Source: Chitinophagia bacterium (GTDB lineage Bacteria > Bacteroidota > Bacteroidia > Chitinophagales > Chitinophagaceae). From it: a stretch of 32,356 nt of DNA. Numbering within the stretch: position 1 is the stretch's first letter; each line of letters opens with the position of its first letter. Made by a program: the position numbers and the translations under genes. Below the pieces are notes generated by a model, which did no database searches, was not told the DNA's origin, and saw only the letters and a list, made by a program, of their open reading frames with translations. Where the stretch lies: positions 1 through 32,356 of the forward strand of contig RFVQ01000004.1 in assembly GCA_009922495.1 (NCBI GenBank), given 5' to 3'. This document shows positions 27,969 through 30,197 of this stretch, piece by piece.

Positions 27969-28304
27969 TCAAGAGTGGGTCCATCGAAAGAAAAGAAGCG
28001 CAGGGATCAGGAGCAAAAGCTTCCACAATTGAAAGGCGCCTACATAGAGATCCAAGGCAAAATGACCAACCAGGATTCCTGCAAACAGAAAGACAGCCCA
28101 TTTCTCCTTAGACCAGATAAAAGAAATGGAGACAAACAGCAATACATTCAACAATACATGCGCTGCCGGATACAGGAGTCCGTATTGCGCATGAAATCCC
28201 GCAAAAGTATATAGGATATCAAATAGTCCCAAAGCAAACAGGATCCCGATAAGGGTACCCACCATATTTCTCTCTACGCTTTTTGAAACTGCCATATTAT
28301 ACAA
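27969..28304 (-). CDS. Small integral membrane hypothetical protein
   Basis: 111 aa (or 108 aa from ATG 28295), about four hydrophobic segments, translationally coupled to the upstream HIT gene. Confidence 0.7.
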   Translation of the reverse strand: MYNMAVSKSVERNMVGTLIGILFALGLFDILYTFAGFHAQYGLLYPAAHVLLNVLLFVSISFIWSKEKWAVFLFAGILVGHFALDLYVGAFQLWKLLLLIPALLFFRWTHS

Positions 28305-28692
28305 GGTGTTGCAGGATTTTATTTTGTGCTGCCTTTAACTCATCCGACGTGGGCTTGAGTTTGGGTCTGGTAAAATTGAGATCATCGGCAGATTGAATGG
28401 GGACCAGGTGCAGGTGTGCATGGGGAACCTCGAGGCCAACGACAGAAAGACCACAACGTTGGCAAGGGAATGCCTTTTCAATTGCCTTTGCAATGGGCTG
28501 CGCAAAACCCAGGATGGCAGAAAGCTCTTCCTGTGTAAGATCGAAAAACCGATCCATCTCTTTTTTAGGAACCACCAAGGTATGCCCTTCTACCAATGGG
28601 AAAACATCCAGAAAAGCATAGAACATTTCATTCTCTGCGATTTTATAGGATGGTATTTCACCTGCGATGATCTTGCTGAAGATACTGGCCAT
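28297..28692 (-). CDS. HIT family hydrolase
   Basis: IFSKIIAGEIPSYKIAENEMFYAFLDVFPLVEGHTLVVPKKE...VPHAHLHLVPI; HxHxH variant HAHLH. Confidence 0.95.
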   Translation of the reverse strand: MASIFSKIIAGEIPSYKIAENEMFYAFLDVFPLVEGHTLVVPKKEMDRFFDLTQEELSAILGFAQPIAKAIEKAFPCQRCGLSVVGLEVPHAHLHLVPIQSADDLNFTRPKLKPTSDELKAAQNKILQHLV

Positions 28693-28694
28693 GA

Positions 28695-29165
28695 TCAGAT
28701 GCTGATGTTGTCGATGGTGAAAACGATCTTTCCGTTGGGTGCTTGAATTTCAGCTTCGTCCCCCACTTTTTTTCCCAACAAACCTTTACCAATGGGAGAA
28801 GTCACGGATATCTTTTGCAATTTAAGATCAGCTTCTTTTTCAGAAACGATCTGGTAGGTCATGGATTTTTTGGTGGCCTTGTTCGTGATGGTCACTTTGG
28901 TAAGGATGGAAACCTTGCTGGTATCGATGTTGGTAGCATCCAGGATCCTGGCGGTTGCCAGCTCCGACTCCATGCGACTGATCTTGGCTTCCAACAATCC
29001 CTGTGCTTCTTTGGCGGCATCGTATTCTGCATTTTCCTTGAGATCCCCTTTTTCCCTGGCTTCTGCAATGGCTTTGGAGGCGGCAGGCCTTTCTACGGTT
29101 TTCATGTGATGAAGCTCCGCTTTCATTTGTTCCAGTGTCTCCTTGGTAACATACATTACGCTCAT
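28695..29165 (-). CDS. greA: Transcription elongation factor GreA
   Basis: YVTKETLEQMKAELHHMKTVERPAASKAIAEAREKGDLKENAEYDAAKEAQGLLEAKISRMESEL...VTSPIGKGLLGKKVGDEAEIQAPNG. Confidence 0.96.
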   Translation of the reverse strand: MSVMYVTKETLEQMKAELHHMKTVERPAASKAIAEAREKGDLKENAEYDAAKEAQGLLEAKISRMESELATARILDATNIDTSKVSILTKVTITNKATKKSMTYQIVSEKEADLKLQKISVTSPIGKGLLGKKVGDEAEIQAPNGKIVFTIDNISI

Positions 29166-29191
29166 AGGTCTATTTTTCTTTGGTCAGTTTT

Positions 29192-29232
29192 GAAAAAAAT
29201 AGCAACGCCCCAGAAAGATCTGAAGCGTTGCT
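29192..29232 (-). terminator. Strong terminator-like hairpin in the greA leader / downstream of the 2-hydroxyacid dehydrogenase
   Basis: AGCAACGC (29201-29208) / GCGTTGCT (29225-29232), with inner CAGA/TCTG stem; on minus followed by ATTTTTTT. Confidence 0.8.
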
Positions 29233-29238
29233 GTGTGG

Positions 29239-29246
29239 CAAAGGTA
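29239..29246 (-). promoter_or_regulatory. Candidate -7 element (TACCTTTG) immediately upstream of the greA leader hairpin
   Basis: Plus-strand CAAAGGTA; exact TAnnTTTG in the intergenic region between the dehydrogenase stop (29262) and greA. Confidence 0.45.
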
Positions 29247-29261
29247 GGTTTTTTTAGAAAA

Positions 29262-30197
29262 TCAGTATCCGGCTGCTTTCAGCTTTTGTACAATGATGTC
29301 AGCCATCTTGAACAGGGCTTCATGACTGTAGCCGGCAATATGGGGAGTGATGATCACATTGGCTCTTCGGGTCAGGTCTTGCAACTGCTGCTTTTCATGT
29401 ACCGTATAAGTTGCAAGTTGTTCATTTTCAAGGACATCAAGTCCTGCTCCGGCAATCCATCCAGCATCCAATGCTCTTTGCAAAGCTGCTGTATCCACAA
29501 CAGAGCCCCTGCTGCTATTAAGGAGATAAGGCTTGCGCTGAAGCTTGCTGAAAAAAACATCATTGGCGTAATGCTGGGTTTCATTTCCGAGGGGAAGGTG
29601 AAAGCTCACTACATCTGCCTGCGCAAGGATCGCATCTAAGGTGGATTCAACTACATGATTGGATCCAAAACCTTGCTTGTACTTATCATGTGCCAGTACC
29701 GTTGCGCCAAATGGTGCCAACAAAGCAGCAAATGCCTGGCCGGTATTGCCAAAACCAATGATGCCGACTGTTTTTCCTCTCAGCTCCATTCCCCGATTGG
29801 CTTCCCTGATCCATGCCGCCTGTTTCACTTCTTCTGATGCTGTCAAAATATTTCTCCTCAGGCTGATCAAGGTGCCCAGACACCATTCAGCTACTGCATC
29901 ACAGTTGCCTTCGGGACTGCTGAAACATTGGATGTTTTTTTGGCTTGCACATGCAGTATCAACGATCTCCATCCCACTGCCCAATCGGCCGAGCCATTTC
30001 AATTGTTTCGCCTCATCAAAAACGGCTTTGTCAATGATCAATCGAGTGGTGATGATGATACCGGTATAATCACCAATCGTGGCCAGCAATTCATCGCGGT
30101 TGATTTTTTCGTTTACCACTACTTCATATTGCATTGCTCTCAGCGCTGGAGCAAGACTGGGATGAACATAAGCCGTAATCAAGACCTTTCCATTCAT
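29262..30197 (-). CDS. D-isomer-specific 2-hydroxyacid dehydrogenase family protein (phosphoglycerate dehydrogenase-like)
   Basis: ELRGKTVGIIGFGNTGQAFAALLAPFGATVLAHD; VSFHLPLGNETQHYAN; LLNSSRGSVVDTAALQRALDAGWIAGAGLDVLENEQL. Confidence 0.92.
   Translation of the reverse strand: MNGKVLITAYVHPSLAPALRAMQYEVVVNEKINRDELLATIGDYTGIIITTRLIIDKAVFDEAKQLKWLGRLGSGMEIVDTACASQKNIQCFSSPEGNCDAVAEWCLGTLISLRRNILTASEEVKQAAWIREANRGMELRGKTVGIIGFGNTGQAFAALLAPFGATVLAHDKYKQGFGSNHVVESTLDAILAQADVVSFHLPLGNETQHYANDVFFSKLQRKPYLLNSSRGSVVDTAALQRALDAGWIAGAGLDVLENEQLATYTVHEKQQLQDLTRRANVIITPHIAGYSHEALFKMADIIVQKLKAAGY

Follow-up and report, generated by a model that had tools for sequence, protein, structure and literature searches.

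The leader of greA in a bacterium of the Chitinophagaceae carries an exact sigma-A -7 promoter element, followed within a few nucleotides by an intrinsic terminator hairpin and its U-tract, and this leader is likely to be an attenuator, formed by a terminator that abuts the promoter and analogous to the GraL leader of Escherichia coli greA. Judging from the sequence and its conservation, most attempts to transcribe greA would probably end as a 42-nucleotide (nt) RNA, and the retention of the layout across the phylum suggests a deliberate brake on GreA production.

Anatomy of the greA leader

The window, which is the whole stretch of DNA analyzed, comprises 32,356 nt (GenBank assembly GCA_009922495.1, contig RFVQ01000004.1, positions 1 to 32,356). 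The features relevant to the greA leader are as follows.

29262..30197, minus strand: D-2-hydroxyacid dehydrogenase family gene, upstream of greA (Pfam 2-Hacid_dh and 2-Hacid_dh_C)
29239..29246, minus strand: -7 promoter element TACCTTTG (sigma-A, consensus TAnnTTTG; exact match, and conservation before the hairpin)
29234, minus strand: predicted transcription start (A), 2 nt 5' of the hairpin (from Flavobacterium psychrophilum spacing)
29201..29232, minus strand: intrinsic terminator hairpin, 14 pairs, stem base GCAACGC/GCGTTGC (fold, conservation and covariation)
29193..29199, minus strand: terminator U-tract, T7 (sequence, and conservation in family leaders)
29193..29234, minus strand: predicted 42-nt terminated leader RNA, GraL-like (from the predicted start and the U-tract)
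29166..29192, minus strand: spacer from the U-tract to the greA start, containing no -7 element (sequence)
28695..29165, minus strand: greA, transcription elongation factor, the regulated gene (Pfam GreA_GreB_N and GreA_GreB)
28297..28692, minus strand: HIT-domain protein gene directly 3' of greA, after a 2-nt gap (Pfam HIT)

Read along the minus strand, TACCTTTG (29246-29239) is followed by CCACAC (29238-29233), by the hairpin AGCAACGCTTCAGATCTTTCTGGGGCGTTGCT (29232-29201), whose 14 pairs enclose a 4-nt loop, by ATTTTTTT (29200-29193) and, after a further 27 nt, by the ATG at 29165. The original prediction of an exact -7 element, a hairpin and a U-tract in front of greA was confirmed at these positions. 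The spacer of about 26 nt that it described exists, with a corrected length of 27 nt, and the short RNA that it placed at 29233-29192 is kept as a predicted RNA with its coordinates revised to 29234-29193. A G+C-rich stem-loop directly followed by a U-tract (14 pairs, T7) gives the leader hairpin the form of an intrinsic terminator, and its location between the predicted promoter and the greA start codon, with no -7 box between them, is the anatomy of an attenuator.

The upstream dehydrogenase gene is co-directional with greA and ends at 29262, 29 nt 5' of the hairpin; an rRNA dimethylase gene (rsmA) also lies upstream. The HIT-domain gene is probably co-transcribed with greA. Besides GreA, no GreA/GreB protein was found in the draft genome of 2.5 Mb. 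We also observed that, within 29163-29200, the U-tract region is complementary to GAAAAATA in the adjoining spacer 5' of greA, and the resulting pairing would arise only in read-through mRNA; this candidate pairing, with AAAAATA in the spacer, was dropped, as it is absent from the near relatives read by eye.

Predicted start site and folding of the leader RNA

The TAnnTTTG box of Flavobacterium psychrophilum spans -12 to -5 (PMC9723704), and applying this -7 spacing to TACCTTTG predicts a start at the A at 29234. A transcript running from there to the end of the U-tract would be 42 nt long and almost nothing but terminator; a short RNA reaching from the promoter of greA to the terminator in its leader distinguishes the GraL type, and here such an RNA is predicted from the sequence.

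The stretch folds at -24.3 kcal/mol, compared with -12.6 +/- 3.0 kcal/mol in shuffled sequences (z = -3.9; 0 of 200 as low), and the predicted 42-nt RNA by itself folds at -23.1 kcal/mol. Generic sigma-70 and terminator scans were uninformative for this window, as promoters of Bacteroidota differ, and the terminator scan of the window by itself was not significant (2 found versus 2.6 expected). The significance of the greA leader derives from conservation across genomes rather than from any single-window scan.

The hairpin has just 2 nt ahead of it, too few for an antiterminator to form upstream, and we detected none of the competing upstream pairing that classically defines a riboswitch, a T-box or a leader peptide. 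When the 3' arm of the terminator was blocked, the best fold reached -16.6 kcal/mol, as opposed to -32.2 kcal/mol. An antiterminator or riboswitch was therefore rejected, there being neither room upstream nor a competing fold near the energy of the terminator.

Conservation of the promoter and hairpin in Chitinophagaceae

A CAACG...CGTTG hairpin with a U-tract is present in 120 of 124 Chitinophagaceae greA leaders, and two of the four leaders lacking it are on contigs that end early (L020 and L028). Within 30 nt 5' of the hairpin, 100 of these 120 leaders (83%) contain an exact TAnnTTTG, and 18 more contain a box with one mismatch, so that the -7 box is imperfect in about one sixth of the family (TTTA or TTCG variants). 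Control windows farther upstream contained an exact TAnnTTTG in only 2 of 1661 cases (about 0.12-0.14%). The conservation of TAnnTTTG together with the hairpin in relatives, a check that had been set with the original prediction, thus had a favorable outcome. Further promoter-like features of the aligned leaders are an A-rich stretch from -23 to -18 and a T at both -17 and -16; a -33 element is not sharply defined, and the modal distance before CAACG in the family is about 4 nt. Of 121 family leaders, 115 have a U-tract of 7-9 T.

Between the U-tract and the ATG, TAnnTTTG was found in none of 121 family leaders, and greA transcripts must therefore cross the terminator. Furthermore, the unit of promoter and hairpin lies 59-187 nt from the ATG in some genomes; as the -7 box and hairpin remain together at these distances, the hairpin is tied to the promoter and not to the start codon. 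In Lacibacter-like and related genomes (L031, L043, L048, L067 and L077), the distance from the unit to the greA ATG is 59-95 nt, additional sequence separating the U-tract from the start codon. By its joint conservation, by the lack of -7 boxes downstream and by the movement of the unit as one, this comparison supports the order of promoter, hairpin and U-tract, with greA dependent on read-through, that had originally been proposed.

A strict search with the hairpin motif in 80 family genomes located it at greA in 69 (all 69 of the genomes that matched) and gave 17 matches elsewhere; in the genome under study the motif is unique. As background, we sampled 400 kb from two genomes of the same genus, containing 152 other intergenic upstream regions. 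A terminator-like hairpin no more than 140 nt from the start occurs in 16 of them, and a -7 box located 0-20 nt ahead of a terminator in none. From these sequence comparisons we conclude that the arrangement of -7 box and hairpin at greA is not due to chance.

Covariation and an almost invariant stem base

Across 61 aligned leaders, 95.4% of the pair cells hold standard pairs, and sliding the arms against each other lowers pairing to 33-52%. Cells changed on both sides number 72, compared with 20 in shuffles (score 0.41 versus 0.20). These covarying changes sit in the inner stem and the outermost pair, while the six pairs of the stem base, CAACGC/GCGTTG, are almost invariant in both arms. The CAACG and CGTTG arms are separated by 13 to 23 nt, and this variable spacing favors an RNA structure over a DNA operator.

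The leader in other Bacteroidota

Outside the family, the comparison covered 108 greA leaders from the rest of the order and from further orders of the class. A terminator hairpin lies close to the ATG in 97 of the 108, and in 64 it is immediately preceded by an exact -7 box, compared with 5% of control windows. The remaining 11 leaders have no detectable terminator, and some of the leaders outside the family have no exact -7 box. The stems outside the family have other sequences that recur within lineages, such as GGCACGTC...GACGTGTC. In other classes of the phylum, where only hairpins were assessed, most greA leaders also carry a terminator hairpin. One further lineage-fixed stem from these classes, GATCGCCGCAGCCG..GGCCGTGGCGTTCT before CTTTTTCTG, was seen in the greA leaders L304-L307.

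A covariance model of the family motif does not define the feature phylum-wide, since it matched few greA leaders outside the family and gave several weak matches elsewhere. Those away from greA include G287:C97:7034-7081, G366:C11:6251-6300 and G314:C49:20177-20227 (E about 1e-4 to 1e-5 per genome); they may be chance matches or may mark further genes in which a terminator immediately follows a -7 box.

Alternative explanations

The simplest alternative, already raised with the original prediction, is that the hairpin merely terminates the upstream rsmA-dehydrogenase operon and that the -7 box is incidental. It agrees with the co-directional gene ending shortly before the hairpin in the window, and with a co-directional upstream gene in 205 of 228 loci. 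However, the gene upstream of greA varies, being a dehydrogenase in 78 of the 228 loci, a member of a large outer-membrane protein cluster in 92, and one of many others elsewhere. The longest reading frame nearby is oriented away from greA in 20 loci, of which 19 carry the hairpin and 17 an exact -7 box; as two of the 20 reading frames (L197 and L272) may be shadows, we relied instead on recognizable genes. Counted with the homologs of the representative genes, at least 11 loci with recognizable divergent upstream genes keep the hairpin, 10 of them with an exact -7 box, and the representatives match PMT_2 (a membrane protein), GpsA, a CvfB-like S1 protein, an ABC transporter, a TonB plug (TonB-dependent receptor) and DUF2911. 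A unit kept beside so many unrelated and divergent neighbors rules out termination of the upstream operon as its sole role, and an incidental -7 box cannot account for a frequency of 83% in leaders against 0.14% at control positions. We therefore regard this explanation, which fails on its own, as very improbable. As a second role in this genome, the hairpin may still serve as a terminator of the upstream operon, and the dehydrogenase gene may in this way use it as its own terminator.

That a small RNA acting in trans is the main product, with control of greA secondary, is improbable: GraL of E. coli does work in trans besides in cis (PMC6829880), and an almost invariant stem base combined with a free inner stem is what a pairing or binding site could require, but the invariant bases are buried in both stem arms, whereas the exposed loop and the inner stem vary, and greA is the only gene that the element accompanies. 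A position 2 nt from the predicted 5' end is typical of a hairpin that protects or tunes the mRNA without terminating transcription, a function that would have no need of the U-tract kept right after the stem in nearly all family leaders; we consider it highly improbable that the greA hairpin acts in this way. Least credible to us, and extremely unlikely, is a DNA operator placed over the start site and bound by a repressor. The inverted repeat CAACGC/GCGTTG is of fixed sequence and overlies the predicted start region, as an operator might, yet the variable distance between its arms is unexpected for a dimer on DNA and led us to disfavor an operator; moreover, the bases between the arms show the covariation of an RNA stem, and the U-tract is retained.

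A proposed model for attenuation of greA

According to the attenuator model, RNA polymerase carrying sigma-A would start at about 29234, making a nascent RNA that is almost wholly terminator. A large share of initiations would stop at the U-tract and release the 42-nt RNA, and greA and the HIT-domain gene would be expressed only by polymerases reading through. Because no upstream antiterminator can form, control would have to be exerted at the polymerase or at the terminator itself, and not by a riboswitch, a T-box or a leader peptide. By analogy with E. coli, the most likely controller would be the level of GreA, which would act on the early elongation complex, and feedback of GreA on its own leader is plausible, with roughly even chances of being correct.

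More tentatively, and with odds that we place against it, the near-invariant stem base may be read in a sequence-specific manner during early elongation, by the polymerase together with GreA or by another factor, which would make the leader a terminator that senses GreA across the phylum without recourse to an alternative RNA fold. If so, the E. coli arm swap, which eliminates control by GreA in log phase (PMC6829880), would have its natural counterpart in a stem base that selection has held fixed in about a hundred genera. Mutations can be mapped out directly from the fixed base and the free inner part of the stem.

Comparison with known systems

Attenuation of greA is already known in Proteobacteria and has been predicted in Firmicutes. 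No Rfam family reached its gathering threshold anywhere in the window, and we found no report of a Bacteroidota greA leader in the literature searched, which consisted mainly of openly accessible main texts, so that an unlisted annotation in a transcriptome table is possible. The leader described here adds a conserved leader RNA that is missing from Rfam and, as far as searched, from Bacteroidota transcriptome papers. Like Flavo-1 RNA (RF01705) and other Rfam motifs from Bacteroidota, it is a short structured motif of this phylum; it is tied to one gene, however, whereas matches to Flavo-1 were reported on either strand and often outside transcripts (PMC9723704).

Naville and Gautheret (2010) predicted greA- and rnk-leaders in Proteobacteria, bacilli and Clostridia, each with a clear antiterminator (PMC2965389), and the main text of that study makes no mention of Bacteroid-. 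Premature terminators before genes of the greA family are a recognized recurrent theme, but, unlike those leaders, the one analyzed here leaves no room for an antiterminator upstream, and no alternative fold approaches the terminator in energy.

The closest parallel is E. coli GraL (Dylewski et al. 2019, PMC6829880), where about two thirds of the greA transcripts stop at the leader terminator and about a third pass. GreA represses greA through this leader, for which catalytically active GreA is required, and an accessory factor is suspected (PMC6829880). Both leaders belong to the same gene and have a promoter, here a predicted one, a few nucleotides before an intrinsic terminator in the 5' UTR, an anatomy from which a short RNA of about 40 nt would be expected. 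In both, the hairpin precedes a similar tail, TATTTTTTT in E. coli and TATTTTTTT or a similar sequence in Chitinophagaceae. The E. coli K-12 greA leader (L295:2700-2960) itself reads as a hairpin GACCTGGG...CCCGGGTC, then GG and TATTTTTTT, its tail resembling that of Chitinophagaceae and its stem unrelated. In contrast, the stems of the two systems lack sequence similarity, 19 nt precede the terminator in E. coli versus 2 nt here, the spacer from U-tract to ATG is much longer in E. coli than the 27 nt in the window, and the promoter here is of the Bacteroidota sigma-A -7 type. Autoregulation has been demonstrated for GraL, and it is by analogy that we propose a Bacteroidota greA leader working as an attenuator of the GraL type under GreA-dependent control. 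If Bacteroidota do attenuate greA with unrelated sequences and a terminator abutting the promoter, the limitation of GreA at its own leader would be a recurring solution among distant phyla, and its mechanism could be approached by comparison.
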